Shown in pieces: positions 14,380 through 46,663 of a stretch of DNA of 64,000 bases. Source of the DNA: Pseudobutyrivibrio sp. OR37 (GTDB lineage Bacteria; Bacillota; Clostridia; Lachnospirales; Lachnospiraceae); NCBI RefSeq assembly GCF_900113655.1, contig NZ_FOQF01000002.1, positions 95,671-159,670 on the forward strand, given 5' to 3'. Under the pieces are notes generated by a model. It saw nothing but the letters and a program-made list of their open reading frames with translations, did no database searches and was not told the origin of the DNA. Made by a program: the position numbers and the translations under genes. Every line of letters begins with the position of its first letter. The stretch's first letter is position 1.

Positions 14380-14397
14380 ACTAGATCTTATTGGATT

Positions 14398-15963: not shown

Positions 15964-15975
15964 AATACACCTCCA

Positions 15976-18651: not shown

Positions 18652-18734
18652 ACAACAATTACCCCGTTTTAATGTAACCTTCAGTAACGGATACATTTAT
18701 ATTAACAAATTAATGTGACTAATCTTTTAATAAC

Positions 18735-18762
18735 AAAAAAGAGGACACTCAACAGTATCCTC
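18735..18762 (-). terminator. Intrinsic terminator closing the BREX operon
   Basis: 9-bp stem GAGGATACT/AGTGTCCTC (one wobble), loop GTTG, six Ts on the minus strand, about 25 bases after the PLD gene. It separates the BREX operon from the helicase pair. Confidence 0.85.
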
Positions 18763-18786
18763 CATTCGTGTACCTATATTCTTTAC

Positions 18787-20052
18787 TTATTCAGATTTAT
18801 ATATTTTCCATCCATATTGCAATCCTAGTGTTTCTAAACGTTCATCAATGTACTCCTTTGCTTCCGGAGACAAAGCAAGCATAGCTTGCTGCCCATGAGC
18901 TTTTGCTACTCTTTCTTTTGGATACTTATCCGGATTATCTCTAGTGTGCATGTATGTCTTATATCCTAGATTATCTATCACTTCACGAAGAGGAATACCA
19001 CAATTAACCGGAGCATCTATAACTTTTGCTTCTGAAATAACACAATAAATTGGATATTCCTCAAGCCAATCATATTGCTTAATCCATGCTTTTTTTCGTG
19101 CATCATTATTTGAACTAAACGCTCTAAAATACCCTTTACCTACAATTACAGGACATTCTCTGCCTGTCTTGTCATAAGAGTGAACGCAGAAGAAAGTTTC
19201 GTCACCTTCTTCTATAGTTTTAGCACTCTTTAATCTTGCTACGGAAAAATTTGAAATATATACAGATTTTCCATTATCGACAAAAGCGTGCATATACATA
19301 GGTTCATCACCATTCGCTCTTTTTTTTGCTGATGCTGAGAATTTTAAAATTATATTTCTTAGACTTTTATGCGATACTATAGAAGTTTCTCCACCCAGTG
19401 CAGAATAAACGGGATCTGTAAGTCGTTCTGATGTATTATTATCAATTTCCCTAAATGCCTCGTTGATATCTTCTTTTATTTGTTTTGCTCTTTTATCAAG
19501 GGCTGCCCCCTTAACAAGAGCAACGATATGTTTTCCACCATCCAGTTTTGATTTTGATTCTTTCTGATTTTGGTATCTTAACTTAAAGTCATCAAGCATT
19601 TCCTGTGTAATACATCCATCTTCAGCAACATTTACTCTAGTAGAAATATCATCAAAATATTCCTGCAAGTCTTCAATAGCTGCTTCTTCGTTAAAATGTA
19701 TTGATAGTTCAATATTTCTGGACAAGCCACTTTCGGTAAAATTAGCACTTCCTACAATTGCGTCATCTTCATCAAATAAATATAGCTTTGTATGTAAACC
19801 AATAACAGCATATAATTTTACCCCAGAATCTAACATACTTTGCAAACCATCAAGTGTATTAGATCCGTCTAAAAAATCTTGAAGATAAAATCTTGTGATA
19901 AAAGAACATGCTATCCCTTTGTTAGCAGCCTCACATAAAAAGTCAGCTGTCTTATTTGATAAAAAAGGGCTTATTATCTTTATTTCTTTCTTTGCTTCTT
20001 TAAACAAAGACGTTATAGTTTCGGAATGTTCATCCGTCACGACTTCAATCAT
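18787..20052 (-). CDS. Phospholipase D-like nuclease, last gene of the BREX operon
   Basis: 421 residues. One HKD motif is clear: HTKLYLFDEDDAIVGSANFT (His87, Lys89), the core of PLD-family nucleases, which act as dimers when only one motif is present. The remaining 300 residues are a C-terminal domain without a recognised family. The start codon overlaps the stop of the preceding gene (TAATG), so translation is coupled. Position at the end of the BREX operon suggests an added effector, comparable in type to DrmC of DISARM, although I see no other DISARM gene. Confidence 0.8.
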   Translation of the reverse strand: MIEVVTDEHSETITSLFKEAKKEIKIISPFLSNKTADFLCEAANKGIACSFITRFYLQDFLDGSNTLDGLQSMLDSGVKLYAVIGLHTKLYLFDEDDAIVGSANFTESGLSRNIELSIHFNEEAAIEDLQEYFDDISTRVNVAEDGCITQEMLDDFKLRYQNQKESKSKLDGGKHIVALVKGAALDKRAKQIKEDINEAFREIDNNTSERLTDPVYSALGGETSIVSHKSLRNIILKFSASAKKRANGDEPMYMHAFVDNGKSVYISNFSVARLKSAKTIEEGDETFFCVHSYDKTGRECPVIVGKGYFRAFSSNNDARKKAWIKQYDWLEEYPIYCVISEAKVIDAPVNCGIPLREVIDNLGYKTYMHTRDNPDKYPKERVAKAHGQQAMLALSPEAKEYIDERLETLGLQYGWKIYKSE

Positions 20053-20387
20053 TACATTTCCTCCAAATACATTACTTTTTTGCCGTGAACTTTTGCATAC
20101 TCGATTTCGGATCTGGTGCTTTCTCCTATATATCCACCAACATTAATAACATAAATAGAATCAGCCATGTCTATCTTACGCTTATGCATATCATCAAGCA
20201 TTTCCTTGGTCTTAGTTAGGGTTCCCTCATCCATATTTTCCCAGACTTCTTGATCCCCAGAATGACCAAAGAGGCCAACACTGATAACAATGTTGCCCTC
20301 TAATGTAAGCCTCTTTTGAACTTCCATAAATTCATTTTTAAACCTGGTACTTCCACATAATGTTATAACAGGATAATTATTATTCAT
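20052..20387 (-). CDS. Nucleoside 2-deoxyribosyltransferase-like protein
   Basis: 111 residues, PVITLCGSTRFKNEFMEVQK at the start and INVGGYIGESTRSEIEYAKV near the end. This Rossmann-like family includes nucleoside deoxyribosyltransferases and nucleotide or NAD-binding relatives found in phages and mobile elements. It begins two bases after brxL and overlaps the PLD gene by one base, so it is part of the BREX operon. A role in nucleotide signalling or base salvage is possible; not shown. Confidence 0.75.
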   Translation of the reverse strand: MNNNYPVITLCGSTRFKNEFMEVQKRLTLEGNIVISVGLFGHSGDQEVWENMDEGTLTKTKEMLDDMHKRKIDMADSIYVINVGGYIGESTRSEIEYAKVHGKKVMYLEEM

Positions 20388-20388
20388 G

Positions 20389-22566
20389 TTAGTCTACCCC
20401 TAACGCTCTAAATACTGCTTCTTCCGGTGTACTATAAAATACTGGCTGAACAGCAGATAATAAATCAGCTGGTACAGCACCAAAATCTGCGGCGGAACTA
20501 ATAGGTATAAGCACCTTCTTCGCTCCTGAATCCACACATACCTGTAATATTGCTGCCAAATCTTCGACTTTATTAATAGTTCCAGAGATTGTTGTTTCGC
20601 CAATAACAACCAAGCCAGCTACTGTAGGCTTGTTAAGGGCTATAGAAGATATAGCAATTAATGTTGGCAGTGCAATATTTTTTGTCATGCCTAATCCCTG
20701 AATATCCTGGTAATCAATTATATAATCTTTCGTGGTAGTACTGATTGAATGACTAATTTTATTACCATTGAGTTTTAAATAAGAAAAACCTGTATCTGCA
20801 GAACTCTTACTATCCTTATCAAGGCTAAAACCTTTCTTCTCAAATTTTCCATTTCCAGGTAACATTTGACTCTCAAGTCTGAAGACACCGATAATACCAT
20901 TTTTACCACGAGCTATCGTATAAATATGACCAGCATTAACGATTCCGTCAGGGATAATTTTTCCACCACCTGATTCCTTTACACCTACAAAATGTTCATC
21001 GAATGTATCATTATCAATATATGAAAAATTAACATCGTAGAATTCCATTCCACCAATTTTCTTCAATTGCTCTTTTACTCTACGACGTAACTCAAGAGAT
21101 ATATCTAATATTTCTGCAATATCATCCTTAGTATAATCACCATTAGGATATAAAAGCTTAACAAATGCATCTACCAATCGCCTAACAGCTATAGTATCAC
21201 GCTGATTTAAATTTGAGCCAAGATGGAAATACTTATCTAATGAATCACCGTAAGATTCCTTTCTCATCTCCCTCATGAATTCTGAAAGGTAGTCAGTAAT
21301 AAAACCATAGTCATCTGTAAAGTGCTCTGGTCTATATTTTGGAATTTCCCAACCTGGAATGTAACCATGCATACGATCTAGAAACGCTGTATCATAGGCC
21401 ATTGCATCAGGAAATGGCTCAAATAAATGAGATGTCTTAAGAAGCACAGATACATCATGGTTAATATTACCAACAAAAACCATAGACGCAGAAGCTGCCT
21501 TTTCTTCTTTACCTCGTGCAAAAGAACCAGACGCCATGTAATCTTTCATTATCTGGACTCCATCTTTATCCTTAAATGTAATTCCGGCCACCTCATCAAA
21601 TGCAACACAATCCCACATTCCTACAAGACCAACAGTTTTTGTTCCCATATTGTAGAAAAGGTTTGCGACTGTTGTTTGTCCACCTGAAACAAGTATAGAG
21701 TTTGGTGAAATTTCTTTATATAAATGTGACTTACCTGTAGAACGCGGTCCTAGCTCACACATATTAAGATTATTTTCAACCAAAGGTAACATACGAGCTA
21801 AAAGCAACCACTTAGCTCTATCTGGCAATTTGTTTGCTTCCATACCTGTGGATCTAAGAAGCACAGTAATCCATTCAGCTTTCGTAAAGGACTTGCGGGC
21901 TTCTTTAAGCTCATCCATATCTATATGTGGCATCTGAACAGGTGTGAGTTTTCTTATTTGAATTGGACCGTACTCTCTATCTTCTTCCACATAATCATAA
22001 TCAAGCTGAACAATACACCAAATACCGCCACATAACAAACGGTCATAAAGTTTAGGATACTCATTTTCAATAGGAATTCCTTTTATTCCAAGATTTGAAA
22101 ACTCTGCTTCATATCTATCCTTTTTAATATTCAAATGAACTGAGATTTTGTCAATAACAGTATATGCACCTCGTTCTCTAAGTGCTGATAATACTTTTTG
22201 TGCCTCGTCTGGTCTCACATAATTATTAGCAAGTATTCTTTTAACATTTTCCACTCCCTCACTAATTATATTCTCATCTTCTGAATTGCAATACTGACCT
22301 AAAAGGTACTCTAATACGTAAACTGGTACATTTGCACCTTCCTTAATGTGTTTTGTTAAATCTTTACGCACTATCTTTCCATCAAAACATCTTCTAAGTT
22401 TCGCATTAAGAATGTCATTATCGACCTTATCATCAGCCTCTTCCATTTCTGCTGCAGCCTCAGGTTCTACTGCTGTTTCAGATTCAGTTTCAATGGTTCC
22501 AACAAAATCATCCACTGGAAAAAGGTCATCCTCTTGTGTGCCATTCTTTTTCATAAAATCAAACAT
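20389..22566 (-). CDS. brxL: BREX protein BrxL (AAA+ ATPase with Lon-like C-terminal domain)
   Basis: About 725 residues from the ATG at 22566 (AGGAGG seven bases upstream; the longer frame starts inside this site). An acidic N-terminal stretch is followed by the BrxL N-terminal domain, the AAA+ core (GPRSTGKSHLYKE near 275; DCVAFDEVAG) and a Lon-like domain with GAKKVLIPISS. I can place the Lon-type Lys but not the usual catalytic Ser: the expected GPSAG position reads MTKNIALPT. BrxL proteins form MCM-like rings on DNA and are effectors or maturation factors in type 1 and type 4 BREX. Confidence 0.9.
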   Translation of the reverse strand: MFDFMKKNGTQEDDLFPVDDFVGTIETESETAVEPEAAAEMEEADDKVDNDILNAKLRRCFDGKIVRKDLTKHIKEGANVPVYVLEYLLGQYCNSEDENIISEGVENVKRILANNYVRPDEAQKVLSALRERGAYTVIDKISVHLNIKKDRYEAEFSNLGIKGIPIENEYPKLYDRLLCGGIWCIVQLDYDYVEEDREYGPIQIRKLTPVQMPHIDMDELKEARKSFTKAEWITVLLRSTGMEANKLPDRAKWLLLARMLPLVENNLNMCELGPRSTGKSHLYKEISPNSILVSGGQTTVANLFYNMGTKTVGLVGMWDCVAFDEVAGITFKDKDGVQIMKDYMASGSFARGKEEKAASASMVFVGNINHDVSVLLKTSHLFEPFPDAMAYDTAFLDRMHGYIPGWEIPKYRPEHFTDDYGFITDYLSEFMREMRKESYGDSLDKYFHLGSNLNQRDTIAVRRLVDAFVKLLYPNGDYTKDDIAEILDISLELRRRVKEQLKKIGGMEFYDVNFSYIDNDTFDEHFVGVKESGGGKIIPDGIVNAGHIYTIARGKNGIIGVFRLESQMLPGNGKFEKKGFSLDKDSKSSADTGFSYLKLNGNKISHSISTTTKDYIIDYQDIQGLGMTKNIALPTLIAISSIALNKPTVAGLVVIGETTISGTINKVEDLAAILQVCVDSGAKKVLIPISSAADFGAVPADLLSAVQPVFYSTPEEAVFRALGVD

Positions 22567-22595
22567 CTTCAAGCCTCCTAGCATCGCCTAAAAAA

Positions 22596-23906
22596 CTAAT
22601 CAAATACCTCTTCAAACTCAATTTGATCATCTGCCACAAATTGATAGTTAGTAATAAGACTATGCCAATCTTCATTTTTATTTTGCAAATGAGAATCAAG
22701 AATATTTACAAAATCTCGTATCATTGTTCTTGGGGTTATTGCTATAGTTTCCCTTTTCATATAAGCATACTTTATAAAATCAAGCAACTCATCATCAGAA
22801 ATATCTGAAGTATAATTATATATCTGTGAATGAATATAAACTAAGTGCTCCATCAAAATAAAAGTTTCTTCTTTTGTCAAAGGTATAACCTTTACAATAG
22901 GAGTCATCATGTTAACTACATCGCCACCAATATATGACCCTGTACTTAATCGAGAGCGTAATGCCTCGTAGCTATATAATCCTTTATCTTTATCATAGAT
23001 ACTATCTGGAATTCCAGACATTATTATTCCTAGATTTGTGGCTCCGCCTTGCAATAAGTCATTGTACATCGACAGGATTTTTTCGTAATTTTTCTGACGA
23101 ACTGTTTTGGATGAAGTATTATAAACATAGGCCAACTCATCTATAAGAACTAAAAAGCCACTATACCCAGCAAGCGTAAACAACTTTGCCCATAATTTGA
23201 TGATATCAAACCAATTTTCATCATCGACCATAGAGCTAATTCCAGTCATTTTCTTAACTTCTTGTTTATTTGCATACTGACCATAAAACCATCTTAATGC
23301 ACATTCTTTCTTGTCAAAATCATTTTCACGTACTCCCTGCCAATAAAGCTTTAATGCTGCAAAGAAAGCAAATCCTTCTTTCATGTCCTGGAATAAATCA
23401 CATTCCTTTAGCATGAATTGATAAGAATATTCCTCAGGGTTTAGTTCAGTTATTCGTTGTTCAGAATAATCTACAACTGCTCGACTTATAGTTTTTGAAA
23501 CCCACTCATCTAAAATCTTTCTGAGGGCGTGACCACTTTGATTAGTTTTATTTGAAACATTTTCCATCAAAGTTTTGTAGGTTGCCAAACCCTTTTTTCT
23601 CGTATTATTTCCTAGCAAACCTCTCTCTGGTGACAAATCTACATTTGCGACAACCATATTTTTCTTCTTTACAGCGTTCTCTTTAATCGTTTGTAGAAGA
23701 AAAGTCTTACCGCTTCCATAACCACCAACTATAAATCTAAAAGAAGTTCCTCCATCAGCCAAGTCTTCCATATCTCTTAGAAGGGTTTCTAATTCCTTTT
23801 CTCTTCCAACAGCTATATAGCCAAGCCCCTCTGTAGGAACAGTTCCCTGTCCCAAAGATTTCATTATATTTTTGTACGTCCTAATAGGTCCTCTGGAATT
23901 TTCCAT
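22596..23906 (-). CDS. brxD: BREX ATP-binding protein BrxD (DUF2791 P-loop family)
   Basis: 436 residues. GYIAVGREKELETLLRDME, GGYGSGKTFLLQ (Walker A, 61-70) and NVDLSPERGLLG are typical of the BrxD/DUF2791 family; Walker B is LVLIDELAYVY. BrxD is known from type 2 (Pgl) and type 6 BREX, usually beside the helicase BrxHI, which is absent here. It lies 15 bases after the SMC-like gene and 29 before brxL, so it may load or regulate one of these. Only a weak GGAAG site precedes its ATG, so translational coupling is likely. Confidence 0.85.
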   Translation of the reverse strand: MENSRGPIRTYKNIMKSLGQGTVPTEGLGYIAVGREKELETLLRDMEDLADGGTSFRFIVGGYGSGKTFLLQTIKENAVKKKNMVVANVDLSPERGLLGNNTRKKGLATYKTLMENVSNKTNQSGHALRKILDEWVSKTISRAVVDYSEQRITELNPEEYSYQFMLKECDLFQDMKEGFAFFAALKLYWQGVRENDFDKKECALRWFYGQYANKQEVKKMTGISSMVDDENWFDIIKLWAKLFTLAGYSGFLVLIDELAYVYNTSSKTVRQKNYEKILSMYNDLLQGGATNLGIIMSGIPDSIYDKDKGLYSYEALRSRLSTGSYIGGDVVNMMTPIVKVIPLTKEETFILMEHLVYIHSQIYNYTSDISDDELLDFIKYAYMKRETIAITPRTMIRDFVNILDSHLQNKNEDWHSLITNYQFVADDQIEFEEVFD

Positions 23907-23921
23907 AGCAGACTTCCATCC

Positions 23922-26900
23922 TTACTTTAATAAACTCTTAATATCTTGCAAATAATCCTCATAAATAACCGGAGTATCGTTGTTATCATCAATAATAGTC
24001 TCACCGTAAAAATCTACAGCTTTACTATTTATGCCATCAACTATCTCCTGAATATTATATGCAGATGCCAAAGCTTCCAACTTATCAGATGATACAGTTG
24101 TTGCTTCTAAAACAGCATTTAATACATTTAACTCATCCCCGATTAACATTTGTTTAAAGGATGAAATATTATCTGCGGTTGGAGCATCGTTTAGATTATT
24201 ATTATCTTGTGCTAATGAATGCATTTCTTCAAGTTCTTCTGTAGATAAAAGCTTTTTCTGATTTCTAGTAAGAATATTTCTAATTTCTTCCATCTGAGAG
24301 AAATCTAAGATGATATCATCTCTAGATAAATCTTCTATAGTAGGCACATCATTAATTGAATGCTCTATAATTCGGACCGATGTGTTGCTTCTCTTTTGGA
24401 ATTCATACTCTTTATAGTCAAAATCAGTTTTACTGAATGCATTTTTAAATTCAGCAATCATCTCGCCGTTTGCAGTTGTAAAGAATATCTGAGTACCACC
24501 TTTAGCAAAATCAGCTAACATCTTAAGTACATGCCTTACCTGATCTTTATCCATGGTTGCAAGAGGTTCATCTAACAAAAGAAATCTAGGAGCAGTATCT
24601 GCGGCTATGTACAATGAAAGCATTGTAGCAAATGCTATAGTAGCTCTTTGACCTGTACTCATTTCATATGTTCTTGCCATGGAGTCATTAATACCACGAA
24701 TAGCATATATACCTTCTTCATCCACTCCGAGCTCCCTAAAATCGTCTGAATGGTGCATTTGAGTAAAGAAAGTACTTATATTACTTATATTATCTTTAAT
24801 CTTTCCCTCAACAAATGATGATAATGAAGGCATTTTTTCAAATGCAGCAACTGCTTTAGAACAACGTTCTAACTGCGGTGTCAATCGATTAACAGCCGCA
24901 GTATAATCACGTAATTGCTGTTCTTCAAATTCAACCATGCTAGCACGTTCTAATCTTTCAACCTCTAAATCAATTTTATCGGAAGCAGAATTGTACACTA
25001 GCAGCCATTCCTTAAGAGATATCTCATTGTTTAGGTCAAAGGCTTCTTTTACCATTTCAATAGACTGCAAGATATCATTAAGTTTATCTAAATTAGAAGT
25101 TTCAAGTTGTAAGTCATATTGTGAGATATTATTCTTTTCAATCTCAATATTATGCTCTAAGTCTATAATCTCTTGCGAAAGCTTATCCTTAGTATCCTCT
25201 AATTTCCTTCTCTGAGATTCATTGTCAGCCATTAACTTAGTAATGTAAGCTTCAAATGACTTTTCATTAGATTCCTTGAACGATTTATAGACAGAATCAT
25301 TTTCTTCAAAATCTTTGCAATACGAGATATTTTTCTCAGAAAATCCCTGACTATTCAAAACCTGTATCTGAGCTTTTATCTCTATTTCTTTCTTAACTAA
25401 ATCCTTTTTTTCGTCTAACAACTTAGCTAAACTTGAGTAATCATCATCTGTAAAATAGTCTTTTATAAGGATTAAATCATCAGCAATTTTATAGATTGTA
25501 CTTTTTGCTTCAGCAACCAAATCATCCTGAGAAAGCTTATGAGAAATATCCGCTATTTTATGCTCTAATGTTTGAATTTCTTCAATAAGCGCGTCCATGC
25601 CATCTTTTTCTGAAGTCTGAGCCGTTGCATTCTGGATTAATTCTAATAGTGCATCCTTAGATTTTTGCTTTGTACCACACAATGGACATTTCTCATCATG
25701 AATCAACTGCTGCCCTATTTTGCGCAATTCAATATAATTCTGTTCTTCAGAAGAGAATCTAGCTTTTTTAAGAGTGTATTCCAGCTCTAAATCCTTCTTT
25801 TTACTAGTTAAAGAATCCAGTTCTTCAGAATATTTTTCATAGTCTTCTTCTGACAGATTATCAAACGAAGGCATTTTCAGGAAATTAACAACTTTTGGAT
25901 ATCGTTCTATGGTATTAAGAAGCTTAAGTAAATTATTTATATGCTCTTGCTCTTCTAACAATTCAGAAAGCATTGCAATACTTTTTTGATCAGATAATAT
26001 TCTTTTTACATCTTCCCATTCTTCACTTTTATTTTTTAACAAAGTAGCACCATTCTCAATTGCAGAAATGGCCTTATCGTTTTCAAAAGAATGAGTCTTT
26101 ACGCCTTGTATTTTTGACATAAATAGCTGGATAGCCTCATTAGATTTAGCTTTCTTACTTTCAATATCAGCATTATCCAACTTCACTTGCTCAACATGTT
26201 TCAGAATATTACCGAGCTTATCTTCATTTTGCTCATATCGGTTAAGAACGCGACAGTATTTGCCCGTTAATTCAAAATCGCTCTGTATCTTCTTATATCG
26301 TTCAATACCCTTCTTCGGTATTTCTTCTAATTTTTTATAAAATGTCTTTGGTAAAATTTGCTCGATCTCACCTGAGTGATTAGTTCTATCTGCATGCTTT
26401 AACGAATCCTCATAGATTCTTTTCATGGTTCTAGCATTGTCAAGATTTTCTCTAATATCATCAAAGGATTCTTCAAAAGCTTTTTTGTATCTTGTCCATT
26501 TCTTTTCATAATCAACAACATCGTCACCAAATAACAAGTTGCCAAACATAACGGCAAAACTAGAATCAGTGTTATCAGATTCATGAATAAACTTATAAGC
26601 CGCCTCTGAATCAAACGCATTGAATCTTCCAAAATTCTGATTCAATGTTGTCTTATTACGTCCTGATGGAACACCATACCATACTCTTTCAATTTCTTTT
26701 GAATTCTTAGCTGAATCCCTTGGTGTGAAACGTTCTACACCAGCTTCCCTATTGTATACATAGACAGTAGGAACATGGCGCAACACATCCATTTTCTTGT
26801 TAAAATCTTTTATTCGACGTATTTCACCTGTCAGGGCAAATTCAATAGCTTCAAGCACAGAAGTTTTACCAGAACCATTAGCGCCATAAAACAGATTAAT

Positions 26901-28523: not shown

Positions 28524-28552
28524 ACCCTTATTCCTCATTAAAACTTTATTTA

Positions 28553-31069
28553 TTACCACCCAAAATCATCTGCGAATGTTAAATCCATAATAACTGGATG
28601 TCTAAATAATTCTAATCCCGTATTATCATCTATCACTACTAAATAATACTGCTTATTTTTGTCATATTTTTGATTTTTAAAATTAAATCTCAATCTAAAT
28701 ATACGCTTTGCAGAATCAGGTTCTCTGCTATCTGCAACGTAGATATTCTCGTTAGAAATACGCTCATCATCTTCAGAAACGAACACCAATCTATAGGTTG
28801 TTTCTTTAACACTATCACTAACTGGCTCTGACTGAATAAAGTCCATGCCAGTAATCAAATTTGTTATCTTCTGCACCATACTTACAAGGCTGATTGATGC
28901 AGGCTTTGTCTCCATATGGCCACGCTCCATCTTGATATCAAGTACCGGAATAATCATTTCCTGTGGTGATGAACCACCATGAACAAAGTTCTGACCTCCG
29001 CCAGAAACCTTGAATACATTGCTGCTTGTTGGGAATGAAACAACCTTGTCATCCTCATATCCGAGCACATATCCTAAGCCTATATTTGCTACACCATCTT
29101 CTGTAATAGCACTTTTAGATACGATATACCTACGGTTAATCCAAGCATCTTTTCCGTTCACACCGCCAATCTTATCACTCTCAGAAATCTTCTCTCTCTT
29201 ATAAACGAAGCCATGATCTGATGTGACTATGAATCTGTATGTATTTGCATTTGTAGAAATCTTTCTTATCAAGTCTGAGATCTCTTTAATTGCCTCTTCA
29301 CATGCAACAAATACCTCATCCTCTGTATTTGCCTTATCACCTCTGGCATCAATTTGATTATGGTATACATAAACAACTTGTTTACCGGTAAAGATATTTC
29401 TTAAATCTGTTTTCTTAAGATTTTTGATATCATCAAACTGTACACAGATGCTATCCTTGCAATGCCCCTGAAGCACTGTCTGTCTGCCGGCTAAATCGTT
29501 ACATAGCACATCATCAGCATAAACTTCATAATCATCTCTCATTTCAAGAGTCTTATGCGGTAAAAGTGCAGCCATGCCAAGTCTTGTATATGAAGGCAAT
29601 GAACTCATCATAGGCGAAAGCTTAGCCGTACAGCGTGGATCATCCTTCATTTGATTAAATAATTCTCTACCAACCTCATATCGCATCGCATCTGAAATAA
29701 TAACAACAGTTCTTTCCTTTGACTGATTTACAAATCCATTGTAGAAATTGCGCTGTAATGGAAGAACTACAAGACCATCCTCTCCGCAGAATGCAGTATT
29801 CCATCTTGGAATCAAGTCATTAAGATACTCGTTGGTATAAATATTTTCTACAAGAGTCTGCAACTCCTCGTAACCAGTTGTGTCTTCAATCTGATCATAG
29901 TAAAAGTAGAATTTTCTATACGCCATATCAATCAGACAATCTTCAGATTCATACTTTTTCACTATACTCTTCATATCATCACTACCGCCATAATTTGCAG
30001 CATTTACAATGGTTAATGCATTCTCAAGCATTTCATAGGCATTCTCATAAGCCTCTCCAAAATGCATCTTTGAACGCTTATCGCATATTTGAAGTAAATC
30101 CATTTCATCAAGCTTTGCTCCGACATCCTCTGATATTAAGCGTTCAGTAATCCACTTAAGAATAAGTTTATCAACATATGCAAAAGCATCCAAGTGAACA
30201 ATATCTTCTGGGTTGTATTTTGCTAAATTGTCTTCTACTTTAAGTCCTTTTGCTACATGAGCAGATAATCTATCATAATCTTCTTTGTAAAGCACACTAT
30301 TCATCAGGTTATCAAGAAATGCTATTACATTTCCCTGCTTCATAGATACAAAACTTCGCCAAGATGCTGGAACTTCGCCCTGCAGATATCTTGCAGCGTA
30401 TGTTACAAATAGAGTAACTATTAGCCTTTCCAAAGATGGATCTGCGTCTACATAGCCGAATTGCTGCTCACAAAGTTTCCAGAAAGCTCCAAGAAGCTCA
30501 TATTTATCCATTTCCTCAAGGTACTTATTATCTTCAACATCTCCCTCTGTGATAACAATTCGTACTACTTCCTCAAAAGAGCAGGTTCTTGTTTTGCAAA
30601 CTGCACTTAAAAGCCCCACAAGGATATTCTCTTCATTAAAATTCTCAATCTCAAGATCATAGAACCGCTGTGTTCTGTCCTTGTTGGCAAAAAACTTAAT
30701 ATGTTTTTCAATTACATGCTTATACTTTTCTTCAATTCCCAGATCCACAGATAAAAGCGATGCTCTATCTGCAAAGAATCTTTTAGAATAAAGCATTGTG
30801 TCTTCAAGGTGATTATCCTTTACTTCCGGCTTTGGAAATGGAGCATAAATCAGATAATTTGTTGTGGTATCTTCTCTCTCAAGAAAATACTTCGTATAAA
30901 ACTGATTATCCTTCTCAAGCCTATAGACTTTGGCATTCTCCAATTCAACGGAATCCATATCCTCTTCAAATTCCGCCTTGTCATCGTACCAAAACACAAG
31001 CTTACGGGTCTCTCCTGTAAACTCTGTGTTAAGCCTATCAATTATCTGTTTTAGATTTAATTCTGCCAT
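28553..31069 (-). CDS. pglZ: BREX alkaline-phosphatase-fold protein PglZ
   Basis: 838 residues. The PglZ domain shows IISDAMRYEVGRELFNQM and the metal-site TSDHGFVYKR. The N-terminal region (LKQIIDRLNTEFTGETRKLV) matches type 1 PglZ proteins. PglZ binds PglX and is required for BREX methylation and phage exclusion. It overlaps the possible GTG start of the SMC gene and follows the HEPN gene by about 20 bases. Confidence 0.92.
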   Translation of the reverse strand: MAELNLKQIIDRLNTEFTGETRKLVFWYDDKAEFEEDMDSVELENAKVYRLEKDNQFYTKYFLEREDTTTNYLIYAPFPKPEVKDNHLEDTMLYSKRFFADRASLLSVDLGIEEKYKHVIEKHIKFFANKDRTQRFYDLEIENFNEENILVGLLSAVCKTRTCSFEEVVRIVITEGDVEDNKYLEEMDKYELLGAFWKLCEQQFGYVDADPSLERLIVTLFVTYAARYLQGEVPASWRSFVSMKQGNVIAFLDNLMNSVLYKEDYDRLSAHVAKGLKVEDNLAKYNPEDIVHLDAFAYVDKLILKWITERLISEDVGAKLDEMDLLQICDKRSKMHFGEAYENAYEMLENALTIVNAANYGGSDDMKSIVKKYESEDCLIDMAYRKFYFYYDQIEDTTGYEELQTLVENIYTNEYLNDLIPRWNTAFCGEDGLVVLPLQRNFYNGFVNQSKERTVVIISDAMRYEVGRELFNQMKDDPRCTAKLSPMMSSLPSYTRLGMAALLPHKTLEMRDDYEVYADDVLCNDLAGRQTVLQGHCKDSICVQFDDIKNLKKTDLRNIFTGKQVVYVYHNQIDARGDKANTEDEVFVACEEAIKEISDLIRKISTNANTYRFIVTSDHGFVYKREKISESDKIGGVNGKDAWINRRYIVSKSAITEDGVANIGLGYVLGYEDDKVVSFPTSSNVFKVSGGGQNFVHGGSSPQEMIIPVLDIKMERGHMETKPASISLVSMVQKITNLITGMDFIQSEPVSDSVKETTYRLVFVSEDDERISNENIYVADSREPDSAKRIFRLRFNFKNQKYDKNKQYYLVVIDDNTGLELFRHPVIMDLTFADDFGW

Positions 31070-31090
31070 TATTATTCCATCCTAACCTTG

Positions 31091-32512
31091 CTAAATTGCA
31101 ACATTCTCGTTAAACAATTCCTTTATTCCTCGTCTCACTTTATCATCTGGGACGCCAGCTTTTTTCAATCGTATTGCATAAGTAAGCTCTTCTATAGTCT
31201 TTGTATCAGTAAGATGTATCGCATCTAATTTAAAATCCATCTTACTATGTGCAATACCATTACGAATCTCTCCAACTCTTCCGCATATAGCACTTATTAT
31301 TTCATCCGTATAACCGCCATAATTACGACTAATAAAAGGTTTTATGATAGCTTCGCAATCATGAATTGCTTTTTCAACATTTTGCGCATAACTATTATCT
31401 AAATTTGACACTGTCTTTTTGATACTAGCTGCATACTTTTTGGCATCTCCTGTGTGTGACTTTCTATATTCTTCGATTATCTCAACTATCTCTTGCTTTG
31501 TAGATATGTATAAATCCGAACGATCATAGTCCTGCCCATATATGTTTCTGAACTCTCTTTCAAATTCTGACATAATCATGATCATTCTACCTGATGAAAA
31601 ATGTCTTCTGTCATCAATAGAGTTACAAATATGTGCATATCCCATCTTTCCAAGCTTTATAGCTTTAAATAGATTAGCTGTTTTGCTTTGAAGTACATCA
31701 TATTTTATGATTCTATCTGCTGCCTTTTTGTGTGTCTCTTCCTCTTTATTTGCCGGAAATACTATTGTTCCAGCGAAATCTCTTTTACCCTCTTTGTTAT
31801 AAAAGGCTTCTATAGCGTTGAAACTCACATTATTTCTATAAGTAATAAACTTTAAAAAGCATCTCGCATGATAAACAACCGTTGTTAAATCATCAACTCC
31901 AATTGGTTTTGAGAAAGTAAAATACATATAACTTGCAGCATCAATCGGATTTAACGCTGTATTATAATGCATTGTAGCAAAGGCATCTAACTCAATAGCT
32001 GCACTTAGCCCTCTCTTTACCGAATAGCTTCCGCAATCTCTTTTTGTTTCCTCATCAGTAGTTGAAACCGTCATCTTCTCTATGTAATTATCCTCGCCAA
32101 ATTTTACGTCATTCCGTAATGCTATTTGCGGAGGAAAGAAATAATTAACTTCTGGTCCCGATACTCTAATTCCTTCAATCTGATCAAAACCGTACTCTTC
32201 TCTGCAATAGTAAAACCAATTTACTTCATAACTTTTAAATCCATGATAATTTGAAGGTGAGTCTTTTACCGAAAAAACTATCCGATAGTGTTCAGAGGTT
32301 ATACCCTCCAACTTAATGCTTTTTATCCATCCGCCAGACTTCGGCTTGTTCAGATTTTCAAAAAAGGCAAAGATATCTGCTGCCTCTTCCCATTCTTCTA
32401 AGTTAGGTGGATACAGGACTATGGAAAAGTCTTCCTCTATAAACTCAAATGGATAATCTATATCATTATATTTTAAATATCCCAATAGTCTTTCCGGCTT
32501 TTTTACAGACAC
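31091..32512 (-). CDS. HEPN-domain protein (ApeA-like) inside the BREX operon
   Basis: About 473 residues. The C-terminal helical domain contains GEIRNGIAHSKMDF, a complete HEPN RNase motif (RNxxxH). The N-terminal 200 residues are beta-rich, with FEFIEEDFSIVLYPPN, as in the ApeA family of anti-phage HEPN proteins, but the match is by eye. I prefer a GTG start at 32512, with GGAGG eight bases upstream; the TTG at 32518 is too close. It lies between the second pglX and pglZ, with gaps of about 15-20 bases. A toxin-type RNase here could be an abortive back-up if BREX fails. Confidence 0.8.
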   Translation of the reverse strand: MSVKKPERLLGYLKYNDIDYPFEFIEEDFSIVLYPPNLEEWEEAADIFAFFENLNKPKSGGWIKSIKLEGITSEHYRIVFSVKDSPSNYHGFKSYEVNWFYYCREEYGFDQIEGIRVSGPEVNYFFPPQIALRNDVKFGEDNYIEKMTVSTTDEETKRDCGSYSVKRGLSAAIELDAFATMHYNTALNPIDAASYMYFTFSKPIGVDDLTTVVYHARCFLKFITYRNNVSFNAIEAFYNKEGKRDFAGTIVFPANKEEETHKKAADRIIKYDVLQSKTANLFKAIKLGKMGYAHICNSIDDRRHFSSGRMIMIMSEFEREFRNIYGQDYDRSDLYISTKQEIVEIIEEYRKSHTGDAKKYAASIKKTVSNLDNSYAQNVEKAIHDCEAIIKPFISRNYGGYTDEIISAICGRVGEIRNGIAHSKMDFKLDAIHLTDTKTIEELTYAIRLKKAGVPDDKVRRGIKELFNENVAI

Positions 32513-32526
32513 CCTCAATACCTCCT

Positions 32527-35184: not shown

Positions 35185-35200
35185 TGTCTCACCTCAATAA

Positions 35201-38809: not shown

Positions 38810-38827
38810 GCCTTATTATCTCCAATC

Positions 38828-41800
38828 TTAAAATTCTACATTTACGATGTCATTCTCATTTAATTCATCAAGCAATGACTTCTTAAGCTGATCAATATAT
38901 TTATCTACATCCTCAGCCTTTTCTATTCTCCATGATGAAGTATGTGCAACAGTCTTGATTGTTACATTCTTTGTCTTCTTCTTAGGAACCTTAACTACTA
39001 CATCAGGTGTTGGCACATCTCCACTTGCTGCATTTTCAGCTGCCCTCTTTGCAGCAATAGCAGCATCTAACTCATTCATTTCGTCTAACAAACGAATCTT
39101 AAGAGCACTCGCTTTATCCGCATAAGCTCTAAGTCTAGAAACATTGTTACATGTATCTGCACCATTCCAAATTTCAACAAACATTTCCTGATACTCAGGC
39201 TTCTTTTCATCTTTATATTCCTTAGTATCAACTACCTCTATAACTCTATCTCTATCAGCTTCGATAGATTGTTTTACTGGTACTGCAGCCTTTTCAAGAA
39301 TGTCTGTATAAGCGTTCATGAACTTATTTCTAAGGTCAGGAAGCTTTGGAATCTCTCTGTATGGAGCCTGCATCTCAACAATTGATTTAATCTGAGCTAC
39401 AATGTCCTCCAAGGCCTTATCTACAATGTATGTTTTACTATCATCATATATTTCAAGCATATCGAGAGCTCTTGTGAATATCTGCTGTTGCTCACCACCA
39501 AAGAATGTTTTTACCGGCTCGTAATCCTCCGCATAATCAAGTAAATCATCCTGGTGCTTAGATACATACTCATAAAACTCTTTAGGCTCTGTTATCTGTA
39601 CAACTGCCTGCATGAGTTTCTTTCCATCATCAATAACCTTCTTTCCTGGATATACGTACTGATTGTAATTAACTAAAAGAGTATTCATCTCACCAATTCT
39701 GTTCTGTGAATACTTTTGGAATGTTCTCATACCACTATCTTCATCTTCCGATGTAAGTGAAGTTCCAAATAGTTCTTTAATTACGGTCTGTACTGCCTTC
39801 TTTTCTTTTTCAGGTACACGGACTCTAACTTCCATGAGAAGCTTGTCTACGTACTGCTTTTTAATAATATAATCAACAATTTCATCTGCCGACTTATTCA
39901 TTACAGTTACAACAGATCCGTTGACCGTAAATGTTAAGTCGCCACGCTTATATAATCTAGCTACCAACCAATGAACGTCATCCTCTACGAATCCATATGG
40001 AGCAGACATAAATCTGTCTTTAATAGTCTTCATGGATGTCTTGATATGTATCTGTGAGTTACCTGATATAAAATTAAGTACATCGTCAAGTGCGTGTTGG
40101 TTAGACTCACCTTCACTACCTAAATCAAGCTTTAACTGATTTGTTGCAGCAAACATCTTTCTAATATTGGTCTCATCAAATGCTGCATCAATATATGAAA
40201 GCTTGTGATAAACTGTCTGAACCAGTCTACCAATAGCCTCATTGATTCTAGATGTAACTTCCTTTGATGAAAGGTTTGCCACATCGCCATTTACATATAT
40301 TGTTGATTCTTTAAGTGCTTCTGTAAGGTAAAGCTTTGCATTAGAATTACGTTCACGCATCTCAACGCGCTTAGCTTCTTTAATAGTTTCATACTTAGTG
40401 AGCTGCGAAGATGTATTAAGTCGAAGGAATTTCTCAATCTTCAAATATGTCATAAGCTCTTCAAGGAAAGCTGCATCGTTTGGAAGAAGTACTACTACTT
40501 CCTGGCTTGTTCCTGACATCATACGAAGAGTCGCATCATCATTGCCACCATCATACCAAGGAGTAAGAACACGAAGTCCTATATCAAAATTCTGATTAGA
40601 TTTGTATGGTCTATCATCAACTATCTGATTAAATGAGAATGCATATCTACCATTAAATGCTGGATAACGATATCTCTTATCGGAAAAGATATCCTCAAAA
40701 ATCATTTCCGAAACTTTGTTAATGACCTCAGCCATTTCAACATTCTGGCTTTCAATCTCTCGATTAATTTCCTGCTCTTCATCTGTAAGGAAAACAAAAA
40801 GGCTACCATTCTTCTGCACAAGCATCTGCTGCTGAAGGACCTTAAGTGCCTGCTCAACCCTTTCCTTTAGCTCGATACGATCATTATCAATGTTATCAAT
40901 CATAAGGCTAGTGATATTCTCTACATTAGCCTCAATCTCAAGTATGTACTTAATCATAAAAAGAGTCTTGAGAACATTAATTGCAAATACATCCTCAGTC
41001 TGTCCCTCTGGATTAATCTTTGTGTTATCAAAAGCCCTAATAATTACACTTCTATGACTATGATCCAAGAAGTTTTCAAGAGCGTCATAGAATCTATGAA
41101 ATGGCACAATTGCACCTTCTGATTCTTCCATGATTTTTACTGCGGATTCTTTGAATAGTGCAAGCATTGAGCGCTCACCTTCTGATAAATGCTTGCCTGA
41201 TGCACCATGCGTCCTTATCGATGTAAGTACACTCGCCAAAATATTAAATTGATATGGTACGAACGGATATACACAAGCAAAATCATTTTCATCTGAGTAA
41301 AGCTTTTTCTCTACGCCATCATTAAAAACAATAAGATTCTTGATGATAGTAGCCTTCTGCTCATAGAGAAGTCTAAGTGTCTGTGCGCCAGTCTCATTCT
41401 TATCCAGAATTCTCTTCTTGATAACCTCATCAACATTTGCCGATGAAAGAGCAAGTCGTGTGGCAAAACGCCCCTGAATCTTAGAGAAGTCATTTCCCTT
41501 AACTTTCATAATAGAATCAACATCCTGCTGGCTAGTAACAACAACCCATGCTTTACCGTAACAAGCTTGACTCAACTCATGTCGTACTGTTTGTAAATTC
41601 AGCATCAAACTTGAATCATCACCTATATACTGTCCTACTTCATCAACCATAAAAACGACGTGGTGATTATTTCCCTTCTTCTCAATATATTCTTGAACTC
41701 TTTTTGCAAATTCTTCAATACTTATTCGATATGGCTCAGTTGCCTTTTCACACCAGTTGCGAGCAGCAGCTTCACTCATGAAATCAATCTTTACAAGAGC

Positions 41801-42433
41801 CTCAACAACATCGTCCTGTATAAAATCAAACTTATGACGCGATTCTTCCCAATCTGAACCATATTCATCTGCGAATGCTCGTTTAAAAACTTCATACTTG
41901 CCTTCATCTGTAAGCTGACTCTCTAAATCTGCAAGATGTGGTAAGCTTCCGCAAAACCCACGTTTTTCGTTAAATACTTTTAAGAAAACATTTACTATTG
42001 CATCTTTATTTTGTTTGCTGTTGCTATCACTCTTTGCATCAATATCAAACAAGATAACATCTGTTGATGTTTCACTAGCCAAACGCATATCTGCAAGAAC
42101 CATCGCATCAGAAATCTTATTATCATCAACAAAATAATCAATTGCCTTTTTACCACCAATTTCTTTGTTATCCAGGATATATGATAGTATCTTTAAGAAA
42201 TGAGATTTACCACTTCCAAAGAAACCTGAAATCCATACTCCCACTTCTACAGTATTGCCAACGATTCCCTTTTTATATGCTTCAAAAAATGTTGCAAAGT
42301 GTTTCTGTAATTCCCTTGTAACAACATATTCTTCTAATTCCTGTGCTGGATTACTTGTTTCACCCTGTCCAACCATCACTACGCCTTGAATATCTCTATC
42401 AATACTCTTAGCAAACATATCTTTAATCTGCAT
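38828..42433 (-). CDS. brxC: BREX ATPase BrxC/PglY
   Basis: 1,201 residues. MQIKDMFAKSIDRDIQGVVM is the characteristic BrxC start. Walker A GFFGSGKSHFLK (71-82) and Walker B VVFMVDEVGQYIG are intact. The rest is the long helical region of the DUF6079/BrxC family. BrxC is a core BREX component, thought to act with BrxB, PglZ and PglX. AGGAGGAG lies 7-9 bases before the ATG; 18 bases separate it from brxB. Confidence 0.95.
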   Translation of the reverse strand: MQIKDMFAKSIDRDIQGVVMVGQGETSNPAQELEEYVVTRELQKHFATFFEAYKKGIVGNTVEVGVWISGFFGSGKSHFLKILSYILDNKEIGGKKAIDYFVDDNKISDAMVLADMRLASETSTDVILFDIDAKSDSNSKQNKDAIVNVFLKVFNEKRGFCGSLPHLADLESQLTDEGKYEVFKRAFADEYGSDWEESRHKFDFIQDDVVEALVKIDFMSEAAARNWCEKATEPYRISIEEFAKRVQEYIEKKGNNHHVVFMVDEVGQYIGDDSSLMLNLQTVRHELSQACYGKAWVVVTSQQDVDSIMKVKGNDFSKIQGRFATRLALSSANVDEVIKKRILDKNETGAQTLRLLYEQKATIIKNLIVFNDGVEKKLYSDENDFACVYPFVPYQFNILASVLTSIRTHGASGKHLSEGERSMLALFKESAVKIMEESEGAIVPFHRFYDALENFLDHSHRSVIIRAFDNTKINPEGQTEDVFAINVLKTLFMIKYILEIEANVENITSLMIDNIDNDRIELKERVEQALKVLQQQMLVQKNGSLFVFLTDEEQEINREIESQNVEMAEVINKVSEMIFEDIFSDKRYRYPAFNGRYAFSFNQIVDDRPYKSNQNFDIGLRVLTPWYDGGNDDATLRMMSGTSQEVVVLLPNDAAFLEELMTYLKIEKFLRLNTSSQLTKYETIKEAKRVEMRERNSNAKLYLTEALKESTIYVNGDVANLSSKEVTSRINEAIGRLVQTVYHKLSYIDAAFDETNIRKMFAATNQLKLDLGSEGESNQHALDDVLNFISGNSQIHIKTSMKTIKDRFMSAPYGFVEDDVHWLVARLYKRGDLTFTVNGSVVTVMNKSADEIVDYIIKKQYVDKLLMEVRVRVPEKEKKAVQTVIKELFGTSLTSEDEDSGMRTFQKYSQNRIGEMNTLLVNYNQYVYPGKKVIDDGKKLMQAVVQITEPKEFYEYVSKHQDDLLDYAEDYEPVKTFFGGEQQQIFTRALDMLEIYDDSKTYIVDKALEDIVAQIKSIVEMQAPYREIPKLPDLRNKFMNAYTDILEKAAVPVKQSIEADRDRVIEVVDTKEYKDEKKPEYQEMFVEIWNGADTCNNVSRLRAYADKASALKIRLLDEMNELDAAIAAKRAAENAASGDVPTPDVVVKVPKKKTKNVTIKTVAHTSSWRIEKAEDVDKYIDQLKKSLLDELNENDIVNVEF

Positions 42434-42450
42434 ATTAGTTCTCCTCCTAA

Positions 42451-43029
42451 CTACTTCACTAACTTAAATGCACGATAATAATTATCATCTTTTATTTCGC
42501 CAAACAAGATAAGTTCTTGTTCGTTATATACTCCTGGGAAAAACATAACTACAGGAGCTTTTACAAATGATTGATGCAAATTGTTCAATACCTTATGTGA
42601 TCTAAGAATTGGAAAGCACTTTCCAACTCCTGTAAGGAATACAACAGCATTATCTGGTGTATTATCCTTGATGTGCTGAACAATAAGACTGTCATCGTCA
42701 TTAATCTTCATCGAATTACTAACAGCTTTTGTTATTTTTTCAAGTCCCTTTTTCTTTTCGAACTTGTAGCAATCCTCTAGAAAATCATTCTCCTTAAGGA
42801 AATCAATGATAATGTCGTAAAGATCAAAGACTACTAATTCAAATTCTTCGTTTCCTTTAGAATTTCTATTTTGCATGTATTTGATTCTCTCTCGAACTTC
42901 CAATTCCTGTTCTGGCGGATAATCAAACACCCAATAATTAACTTCGTTTGCTCTACCGCTACTCTGACGGAATGTTGGCTTCTTAATCGCCTCTTCCATC
43001 TGATCTAGACGCTCTGCTAAATCTGCCAT
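42451..43029 (-). CDS. brxB: BREX protein BrxB (DUF1788)
   Basis: 192 residues. VVFLTGVGKCFPILRSHKVL and the C-terminal APVVMFFPGVYNEQELILFG are the DUF1788 signature. Its ATG overlaps the brxA stop by one base (TAATG). BrxB is required for both methylation and exclusion in studied type 1 systems. Confidence 0.92.
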   Translation of the reverse strand: MADLAERLDQMEEAIKKPTFRQSSGRANEVNYWVFDYPPEQELEVRERIKYMQNRNSKGNEEFELVVFDLYDIIIDFLKENDFLEDCYKFEKKKGLEKITKAVSNSMKINDDDSLIVQHIKDNTPDNAVVFLTGVGKCFPILRSHKVLNNLHQSFVKAPVVMFFPGVYNEQELILFGEIKDDNYYRAFKLVK

Positions 43030-43655
43030 TATCTAACTCCTTCCAACGCCTTAGCTATCTGTCCATATCCATAATCGTCAAGCCAATGCTTTAAAATCGG
43101 ATCAAGAACGGGCTTCAAAATCTCACGCTCTGTTCCTCTATTATTGTCATCAAGTAATCCTGCCTCAAAAAGCATTGTCTTATAGCTTCTAGAAAGCCTT
43201 TTAACTGTAGCTTCAGTTAGCTTTTCGACATCCTCATGCTGTTCCTGCTTATTCTTAAAATAGATACTAAGATCAGCATCGGTTAAAACATTATTTCCAA
43301 TAATCAGCTTCTCTCGAACTACTTCATATACAAAATCAAAGAACAATGTATCATGTGCTAGTGTTCCTGCTAATGCAAATAGTTTCTGAGTAGAAACATC
43401 ACTATCCATAAACAATGGATAAAAGCTCTCATCCAAGGATTTGATTCTCGCTGTACAAGTTGAATAAATCATCTTGGCTCTAGCTGGTGTACTAGCTCCA
43501 AATATATTCTCTTCTTCACTGAGCTTTTTTATCTCCTCAAAAGATTTTCCAGACGATAACATCTGGACCTCTTTCCTAAACTCCATAAACCAAAATGAGA
43601 ACTTTACTGCTCCTGCGCTATATTTATTTCTCTTCAACTGTGTTTCCTCCGTCAT
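43029..43655 (-). CDS. brxA: BREX protein BrxA (DUF1819)
   Basis: 208 residues in the ATG form. YSAGAVKFSFWFMEFRKEV and the following helices fit the DUF1819/BrxA family, small helical DNA-binding proteins. The first ATG (43655) has no good ribosome-binding site; a TTG at 43637 has GGAGG eight bases upstream and gives MKRNKYSAGAVKF, closer to other BrxA N-termini. It overlaps the end of the regulator gene in either case. Confidence 0.9.
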   Translation of the reverse strand: MTEETQLKRNKYSAGAVKFSFWFMEFRKEVQMLSSGKSFEEIKKLSEEENIFGASTPARAKMIYSTCTARIKSLDESFYPLFMDSDVSTQKLFALAGTLAHDTLFFDFVYEVVREKLIIGNNVLTDADLSIYFKNKQEQHEDVEKLTEATVKRLSRSYKTMLFEAGLLDDNNRGTEREILKPVLDPILKHWLDDYGYGQIAKALEGVR

Positions 43656-43854
43656 CTGGAATCATTTCCATAATGTCGCCAACATCACACTTGAGGAATG
43701 CACAAATTCGAGAAATTACATCCATAGATACATTCTCATTTCTGCCCATTTTTGCCATAGTATTAGGACTTGCTTTAATCGCATCCTGCAAGTCCTTTTT
43801 TTGCATGTCTAAATCAATTAGCATCTTCCATAGTTTCTTATAACTTACTTTCAT
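43624..43854 (-). CDS. XRE-family regulator at the head of the BREX operon
   Basis: 76 residues from MKVSYKKLWKMLIDLDMQKK (GAGGA six bases before the ATG). Short Cro/C1-type helix-turn-helix (KDLQDAIKASPNTMAKMGRN). It overlaps brxA, so it is co-transcribed with and probably controls the operon. Many BREX loci carry a WYL regulator (BrxR) instead; here a WYL gene lies upstream at 45002 and this XRE gene is the operon's first gene. Confidence 0.85.
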   Translation of the reverse strand: MKVSYKKLWKMLIDLDMQKKDLQDAIKASPNTMAKMGRNENVSMDVISRICAFLKCDVGDIMEMIPDDGGNTVEEK

Positions 43855-45988: not shown

Positions 45989-46004
45989 AAAGATACCCCC
46001 TATT

Positions 46005-46028
46005 TATACTCAATCTTTCTTGAGTATA
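46005..46028. promoter_or_regulatory. Perfect inverted repeat upstream of the WYL gene
   Basis: TATACTCAA and TTGAGTATA, 9 bp each, separated by six bases; the distal arm overlaps TATACT, a possible -10. Position and symmetry fit a dimeric regulator, most simply the WYL protein. Confidence 0.65.
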
Positions 46029-46087
46029 GCATAGGAGGGATGATTATTGGACATATTCACATAATCTAATTCTTAAAAATATTCTGT

Positions 46088-46651: not shown

Positions 46652-46663
46652 ATTCTGTACCCC

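Follow-up and report, generated by a model that had tools for sequence, protein, structure and literature searches.

In a 64,000-nucleotide stretch of the Pseudobutyrivibrio sp. OR37 genome (contig NZ_FOQF01000002.1, positions 95,671 to 159,670; here called the window) we analysed a bacteriophage exclusion (BREX) locus whose genes form one minus-strand run at 18787-43854, from an XRE regulator gene (43854) to a phospholipase D (PLD)-family gene (18787). We read it as a type 1 BREX operon carrying defence cargo in two slots, part of which is a Shango/ABC-3C hybrid module: a large protein of the structural maintenance of chromosomes (SMC) type, paired with an AAA+ ATPase of the SngB type. Together with the roles that we propose for the cargo, this reading seems to us the probable one; our confidence is high for the composition and moderate to low for the mechanism. 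Judged from the sequence, the core is that of type 1, the ATPase is SngB, the SMC protein is a chimera, TerB_N is missing, SngC is not recognisable, and the HEPN-like gene has been exchanged in a sister operon of Pseudobutyrivibrio sp. 49 (genome G009, locus L077), which has the same gene order as the window. The locus is a variant of type 1 BREX and not an established subtype.

The type 1 core (brxA/B/C-pglX-pglZ-brxL), recognised already in a first-pass annotation of this DNA, was confirmed by Pfam and PADLOC profile matches, with its genes in order. The complete run reads XRE, brxA, brxB, brxC, pglX, pglX', HEPN-like, pglZ, SMC-like, sngB, brxL, DUF4406-like and PLD, and all of these genes are open frames. 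Pfam matches above cut-off were HTH_26, BrxA, BrxB, three BrxC domains, Eco57I (in both methyltransferases, PglX and PglX'), PglZ, BrxL_N, BrxL_ATPase, BrxC_BrxD, SMC_N, AAA_23 and PLDc_2. The second methyltransferase is without the C-terminal ~300 residues of the full-length family model. The window BrxL has an acidic N-terminal extension of ~40-45 residues (22440-22584), absent from relatives that are otherwise 67-73% identical and that begin to align at residue 42-59.

Spacing within the run is tight throughout. The XRE gene overlaps brxA by 32 bp and brxA overlaps brxB by 1 bp, and from brxB down to pglZ the successive gaps are 17, 18, 16, 8 and 21 bp. The SMC gene overlaps pglZ by 7 bp if a GTG start is used and lies 29 bp from it if translation begins at a later ATG preceded by GAGGA; 15 bp separate it from sngB, which is followed by brxL after 11 bp (29 bp from the second brxL ATG, which stands after AGGAGG). 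The DUF4406-like gene lies 1 bp from brxL and shares 1 bp with the PLD gene. The co-directional tight run closed by a terminator, as first described, was thus found again, with genes about where they had been placed and a terminator-like hairpin at 18763-18740. One hairpin was observed in 14200-19000 against 1.8 +/- 1.5 in shuffled sequences, and only its position supports the terminator call. Within 20300-35300, terminator-like matches on both strands (7 vs 6.0 +/- 2.5 by chance) and promoter-like matches (60 vs 63.3 +/- 7.1) were at chance level.

The ATPase gene between the SMC gene and brxL had been named brxD. By its profile matches and its place in a tree it belongs with SngB of Shango, a TerB-ATPase-helicase anti-phage system (PMC10250203, in the part of that paper available to us). 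PADLOC scored it at 419 bits for SngB (E 4.8e-126) versus 142 bits for BrxD. On the NCBIfam BrxD equivalog it reached 141.1 bits, below the cut-off of 350, where three Shango SngB proteins score 159-172; the brxD of a type 2/6 hybrid is ruled out by these values. It does match the broad Pfam family BrxC_BrxD. A tree of 33 rows places the ATPase with Shango SngB, 100/100 apart from two BrxD-like rows, which score 230 and 152 on NCBIfam BrxD and so are not certified BrxD either. Counting window and sister, 32 of 195 related genomes had matches of the sngB type at E 1e-20 or better; the PDB sequences held nothing for SngB at E 0.1.

The SMC-like protein is, on the evidence of its matches, a chimera of an unmatched N-terminus, an ABC-3C/Lamassu-type body and an SngA-type tail. 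The body (residues 345-1398) is of a putative MComp1-SMC kind, with a Walker A motif at 559 and a CPLC zinc hook at 958, and it matched a hidden Markov model (HMM) of eight other SMC proteins at E 1.8e-128 and PADLOC LmuB at E 1.6e-23. MComp1 itself (residues 345-528) scored 23.7 bits against a cut-off of 27.3, and among relatives L142 lies above that value (28.8) and L087 (23.9) and L081 (14.6) below it. These relatives, Defluviitalea, Paenibacillus and Brevibacillus among their hosts, are 1,030-1,132 residues long, several with an MComp1-like start. In PDB sequences only Rad50 fragments matched the SMC protein. Nothing tried matched residues 1-345, which include an acidic stretch (245-330, 46 of 86 residues acidic); single-sequence structure prediction of residues 1-528 gave a pLDDT (predicted local distance difference test) of 37. 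As the missing family effector or as the N-terminal half of SngA this segment was rejected, with no match and hhalign values <1% for both.

The tail (residues 1416-1545), when scanned alone, reached 27.0 bits for Pfam TerB_C, whose cut-off is 26.3. Aligned to SngA alignments by hhalign it gave 98.2-98.4% (best E 1e-14), against <1% for four other profiles, and our own tail HMM found it at E 1.6e-12, the next window protein following at E 0.13. The sister's SMC carries the tail as well (7e-13). All 16 other family SMC proteins tested are devoid of it (best E 0.52); eight of them were about full length, several were cut N-terminally by locus ends, the L145 site has an in-frame stop so that its end may be early, and L082 yielded no SMC. 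Neither carrier genome gave a second TerB_C match at E 1, and none of 14 control genomes exceeded the cut-off. TerB_N was not matched by the window SMC. The earlier claim that a zinc-hook SMC gene and an additional ATPase of the BrxC/BrxD family stand within one tight run was upheld.

In related SMC loci, a partner gene of ~570-660 residues (L081-like) adjoins the SMC gene in L142, L143, L047, L078, L081, L087, L088 and L083, and a shorter one does so in L145; the partner is thus present in 9 of 14 loci, with L080, L084 and L089 cut on that side. This layout resembles that of ABC-3C/Lamassu (PMC10586767, seen in part). A profile of eight partner proteins found no such effector among the 15 window proteins (best E 0.024, 2.9 bits), a negative that covers this profile only and not other ABC-3C effector types. 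As a separate observation, a Paenibacillaceae cassette (L081 780-6792; also L078, L087, L084 and L089) joins a ~585-residue protein without family match to MComp1-SMC-type and ThsA_Macro-type proteins; it may be an ABC-3C system not yet characterised, whose macro component resembles that of Thoeris. A ThsA_Macro-like gene follows the SMC gene in 5 of the 14 loci, L081 included, for which alone Pfam was checked.

Comparison with Shango shows what the SMC protein replaces. We fetched the surroundings of 26 Shango-type loci in stretches of at most 19 kb (L044, L045, L075 and L076 were left out of this set). In all 23 loci scanned, the protein upstream of sngB matched TerB_N and TerB_C (E 0.01); L063, L071 and L073, which have no usable upstream gene, were left out. 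The SngA proteins of L062 (5852-8668) and L067 (10052-12721) have long N-terminal extensions (938 and 889 residues in total), and their match is confined to the C-terminal ~500 residues. A gene of 717-807 residues follows sngB in 24 of the 26 loci, and the one that was checked is SngC, which also matches BrxHI. In the window brxL directly follows sngB, where sngC would stand in Shango. No helicase of the SngC/BrxHI type was recognised in the run, and the SngC profile matched no window protein. In the carrier genomes it gave a single weak match in G000, the window genome (27.6 bits), and nothing in G009, and 13 of 14 controls were similar. Conversely, no window BREX protein had a match at E 1e-4 in the stretches around the 26 Shango-type loci. 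Because the SMC gene stands before sngB and its product ends in a TerB_C tail, the SMC protein occupies the place of SngA and not that of the helicase. The proposal in the first-pass annotation that it takes the place of BrxD's helicase partner fails on the same two points.

The sister operon shows how the locus has changed. At the nucleotide level the SMC, sngB, brxL, DUF4406-like and PLD genes are 99.6-99.8% identical between the two carriers, and three upstream genes 99.8-100%, against 95% for pglZ, 91% for brxC, 85% for brxA, 80% for brxB, and 80% and 69% for the two pglX genes. The copies diverge in brxA and brxB, in the specificity regions of both pglX genes, in the 5' part of brxC and, within pglZ, mainly towards the 5' end (window 28676-43650 vs L044-L046). 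Within PglX, residues ~532-867, which we take, from what is known of other PglX proteins, to set the specificity, are 26-50% identical, against 90-100% ahead of residue 472 and beyond 867, and the same region of PglX' 23-47%; a shoulder at 420-530 shows 59-91% and the remainder 88-100%. It looks as if the BREX allele had been exchanged in place. Since the part from SMC to PLD and the three upstream genes are 99.6-100% identical, the two SMC genes go back to one insertion, after which recombination replaced much of the brxA-pglZ part. The same identity rules out the sister locus as an independent recurrence. Codon changes between the carriers are 3 synonymous and 0 nonsynonymous in sngB, and 10 and 9 of 1545 in the SMC gene, so few that the test is weak.

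The pair is rare. An SMC with the tail occurred in 2 of 195 relatives, and in the own genome only among 391 genomes of the class, 397 of the family and 398 of the phylum (overlapping sets). A pattern scan of genome contigs, of low recall since motif residues differ in the profile-found relatives L142, L143 and L145, returned 13 stretches: the sister, 11 with other family SMCs, and L082 without a recognised SMC. Scans of viral contigs found no relative, and plasmids gave only 3 weak partial SMC matches. Because the only two carriers belong to one genus and their copies are nearly identical, we count a single evolutionary event. The gene order, whose recurrence the first-pass annotation had named as a check, was found in a second species, but this is the same insertion, in one genus and in near-identical copies.

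Extra genes occur in the same two places in related type 1 operons. BrxL was matched in 23 of the 195 related genomes, and 14 BrxL loci were annotated besides those of window and sister. Of the loci that could be assessed, 5 of 10 have extra genes in the pglX-pglZ slot (L119, L121, L124 and L127 left out) and 3 of 13 in the pglZ-brxL slot (L119, which has no pglZ, left out). Among the operons fetched, L122 has the core nearest to that of the window (BrxC 85%, PglZ 84% identical); it is of type 1 and lacks SMC-SngB. The contents of slots and flanks, from family scans that covered ten slot or flanking proteins, include a YhcG-type nuclease and a DUF4268 protein (L122), a TIR/SpbK-like protein and a superfamily 2 (SF2) helicase (L120), Schlafen-like proteins (L118, L121 and L125) and a 553-residue protein with no family match or unscanned (L126).

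The HEPN-like protein in the pglX-pglZ slot of the window is exchangeable cargo as well. Its assignment is a motif-level call: the Rx4-6H motif, RNGIAH at 419, aligns with RNNYAH of L146 in G149, the only homologue that came up (23-24% identical). No match was obtained in Pfam (E up to 2), PADLOC or NCBIfam, nor for the homologue at E 0.1; PDB sequences held nothing (E 10), plasmids and phages had none (E 0.01), and single-sequence structure prediction gave a pLDDT of 37. Among the 195 relatives the protein occurred in two, its own genome and the 24%-identical case. At the HEPN position the sister has AbiJ (PADLOC E 3e-79; Abi_C), with the motif RNANSDAH. The HEPN-like gene is present in the run, as first annotated, but it is not a fixed part of a conserved set, which AbiJ in G009 rules out.

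The genes after brxL are a small DUF4406-like gene and the HKD (PLD-family) gene. The former had been called deoxyribosyltransferase-like; the frame is there, but the family match stays below threshold (DUF4406 17.7 bits, cut-off 22). Relatives lie beside another BREX (L118 18326-18661, 81%) and beside an SMC/ThsA_Macro cassette (L089 1613-1927, 50%), so that it may be an accessory gene that defence systems have in common. BREX-associated nucleases of the HEPN and HKD types, encoded within or next to the operons, have been catalogued (Rakesh and Krishnan 2026, PMC12839542, as far as its accessible part shows).

Features of the BREX run and its flanks (window coordinates; lengths in amino acids, aa)
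Feature	Position	Strand	Evidence or remark
WYL-WCX regulator upstream of operon, BrxR-like candidate	45002..45988	-	WYL 43 bits, WCX 28 bits; 99.8% nucleotide identity to sister
XRE/HTH_26 regulator, 76 aa, first gene	43624..43854	-	Pfam HTH_26 65.8 bits, cut-off 22
brxA	43029..43655	-	Pfam BrxA 189 bits; PADLOC BrxA
brxB	42451..43029	-	Pfam BrxB 145 bits
brxC	38828..42433	-	BrxC 4th, helical and winged helix-turn-helix domains; PADLOC BrxC 1492 bits
pglX, full-length methyltransferase, 1202 aa	35201..38809	-	NPPY at 512; PADLOC PglX 1490 bits
pglX', second methyltransferase, 885 aa	32527..35184	-	NPPY at 510; PADLOC PglX 1064 bits, profile positions 1-869 of 1174
HEPN-like putative RNase, 475 aa, exchangeable cargo in pglX-pglZ slot	31091..32518	-	motif RNGIAH at 419
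pglZ	28553..31069	-	Pfam PglZ 189 bits
SMC-like chimera, 1545 aa	23922..28559	-	likely later start is ATG at 28523
TerB_C tail of SMC, residues 1416-1545	23925..24314	-	homologous to Shango SngA C-terminus
SngB-type AAA+ ATPase, 436 aa (earlier brxD)	22596..23906	-	PADLOC SngB 419 bits
brxL	20389..22584	-	PADLOC BrxL 1083 bits; Lon_C 23.1 bits (C-terminus); NCBIfam BrxL
DUF4406/deoxyribosyltransferase-like small protein, 111 aa	20052..20387	-	DUF4406 17.7 bits, below cut-off 22
Stand-alone HKD (PLD-family) putative nuclease	18787..20052	-	HTKLYLFD at 87; PLDc_2 64 bits; DrmC-like in PADLOC
Terminator-like hairpin closing run	18740..18763	-	10 pairs and T tail, just past PLD gene
Upf1-like superfamily 1 helicase beyond hairpin	15976..18696	-	AAA_11/AAA_12; Cys-rich C-terminus (by eye)
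476-aa protein	14533..15963	-	no family match in profile scans; 99.9% nucleotide identity to G009

Beyond the hairpin lie the Upf1-like helicase gene and the gene for the 476-residue protein, both of which are found with the BREX locus of the sister as well. The best PADLOC match of the helicase is MkoA (194 bits, over the helicase part); its gene is 96% identical to that of G009 at the nucleotide level, and a segment of ~500 bp (16926-17425) drops to 79-83% between surroundings of ~100% identity. Further downstream, a 72-bp stretch apparently occurs twice in the same orientation (13323-13394 and 14414-14485, ~82% identity, from cross-matches to the sister) and surrounds small serine/lysine-rich open reading frames. 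Upstream, 45002-48747 encodes the WYL-WCX regulator, an HNH endonuclease-like protein, a 373-residue protein and an ADP-ribosylglycohydrolase-like protein, with the same lengths and order in the sister.

In the mechanism that we propose, BREX would methylate host sites, perhaps with two specificities, and restrict unmodified phage, the pglX-pglZ slot adding a further methyltransferase and a HEPN-type effector that can be exchanged. The TerB_C tail may dock the SMC protein on SngB as in SngA, and the SMC body may sense abnormal phage DNA structures or ends, by analogy with what has been proposed for Lamassu. The SMC-SngB assembly would then either restrict by itself or signal to the co-expressed effectors (PglZ, the HKD protein and HEPN/AbiJ), with BrxL possibly the motor in the place of SngC. 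Probably expressed from the same operon, the module would add a modification-independent sensor of unusual DNA, and hence a second layer once methylation-based BREX is evaded; the HEPN/AbiJ and HKD proteins may be back-up effectors.

Several points weigh against this reading. The pair is confined to two genomes of one genus, in near-identical copies, and the long branch of the window SngB makes its exact position in the tree unsure. The MComp1 score of the window protein lies under the cut-off. TerB_C was absent from the listings of whole-SMC-protein scans, was borderline in the genome search for G000 (26.2 bits, 26.5 with neighbours, vs 26.3) and stayed under the cut-off in the sister G009 (24.4 bits). 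Residues 1-345 of the SMC protein are unaccounted for by any match.

Among the other explanations, we regard as a real though lesser possibility that the two genes of SMC-SngB make up a defence system which is complete by itself, has a target of its own and only happens to sit in the BREX operon, to which nothing in its function would tie it. The unrelated defence genes in the same slot of related operons fit this explanation, as does L122, the closest core relative, which does without the pair. In Salmonella StySA, two genes inserted between pglX and pglZ are not needed for methylation (PMC9009780, from the part available). Against it, the gaps of 11-29 bp leave no room for an intergenic promoter, although promoters may lie inside the genes. 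Moreover, because the family's usual effector has no counterpart among the 15 window proteins and the Shango helicase is missing, SMC-SngB seems to need partners.

A closer integration, in which SngB has swapped SngC for BrxL and SMC-SngB-BrxL works like SngA-SngB-SngC, is in our view unlikely. It would account for brxL standing right after sngB, where Shango has the 717-807-residue gene in 24 of 26 loci, and the acidic extension of the window BrxL and the AGGAGG before its second ATG are in keeping with it. However, brxL follows pglZ directly in 10 of 13 type 1 operons, and an insertion between these two genes explains the position. In addition, SngC is a DEAD/SF2 helicase and BrxL an MCM-like AAA+ protein (PMC12839542, same part), and the SngC profile matched none of the window proteins.

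Less likely again is the view of the first-pass annotation that the locus forms a BREX subtype of its own, with the SMC protein replacing BrxHI as the partner of BrxD. The same gene order in two species speaks for it, but the ATPase lies below the BrxD cut-off, the SMC protein has the tail of SngA and no helicase feature, and type 1 operons with a similar core do without the pair, which is known from a single lineage. The nearest core relative, L122, is itself of type 1 with unrelated cargo, so that a subtype was not upheld. Finally, a decaying, functionless remnant of a Shango or ABC-3C locus, as the failure of profile searches to find SngC, TerB_N and an ABC-3C-family effector might suggest, is very improbable in the face of open frames, intact Walker A motifs in SMC and SngB, the CPLC hook and the codon changes given above, weak as that test is with so few changes.

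We return to a type 1 BREX operon with a hybrid SMC-SngB module. The swap, in which only the last ~130 residues of SngA are kept, suggests that the tail does the coupling, while the rest of the protein is a sensor that can be exchanged. One may speculate further, and we do so tentatively, that the TerB_C tail is a portable docking plug through which Shango's TerB sensor was swapped for an ABC-3C SMC, and that SMC-SngB drives BrxL, PglZ, HKD and HEPN in a three-way hybrid of Shango, a Lamassu-type system and BREX. The swap bears on the role of Shango's TerB protein and on how SngB/BrxD-family ATPases are triggered. The locus adds an SMC-based module to the cargo known within BREX operons and places the pglZ-brxL slot beside the known pglX-pglZ slot. 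In the sister operons both methyltransferase specificity regions and the effector have been exchanged, which indicates a way in which a BREX operon may acquire new targets in nature, and the hybrid module hints at an exchange of sensors and motors among bacterial defence systems. In the published literature searched (titles and abstract starts, some papers in part) we found no SMC-TerB_C protein and no SngB in a type 1 BREX operon.

The locus can be set beside several known systems. With the BREX auxiliary effectors it shares HEPN- and HKD-type genes in the run; the main text of that catalogue, so far as available (PMC12839542), has no 'TerB' or 'Shango' and one 'SMC', and no SMC-TerB_C/SngB pair was seen in it. 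Like type 2/6 BREX, which has BrxD and BrxHI, the window has an AAA+ ATPase of the BrxC/BrxD family inside a BREX operon, but this ATPase is SngB-type and below the BrxD cut-off, and BrxHI is missing. With Lamassu/ABC-3C it shares a Rad50/SMC-like ATPase with a zinc hook, here preceded by a candidate MComp1-like domain, family relatives being ~24-27% identical to the window SMC over long alignments; it differs by the unmatched N-terminal extension, the TerB_C tail and the lack of an adjoining eff584-like effector gene. As in Shango, an SngB-type ATPase is preceded by a protein with an SngA-type TerB_C tail, whereas here an SMC stands in place of the TerB_N part, the SngC helicase is missing and the pair is embedded in BREX. 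The likeness to type 1 BREX extends over all six core genes, brxA-brxB-brxC-pglX-pglZ-brxL, in order after the XRE gene; to these the window run adds the truncated pglX', the HEPN-like gene, the SMC-SngB pair between pglZ and brxL, and the DUF4406-like and HKD genes after brxL.

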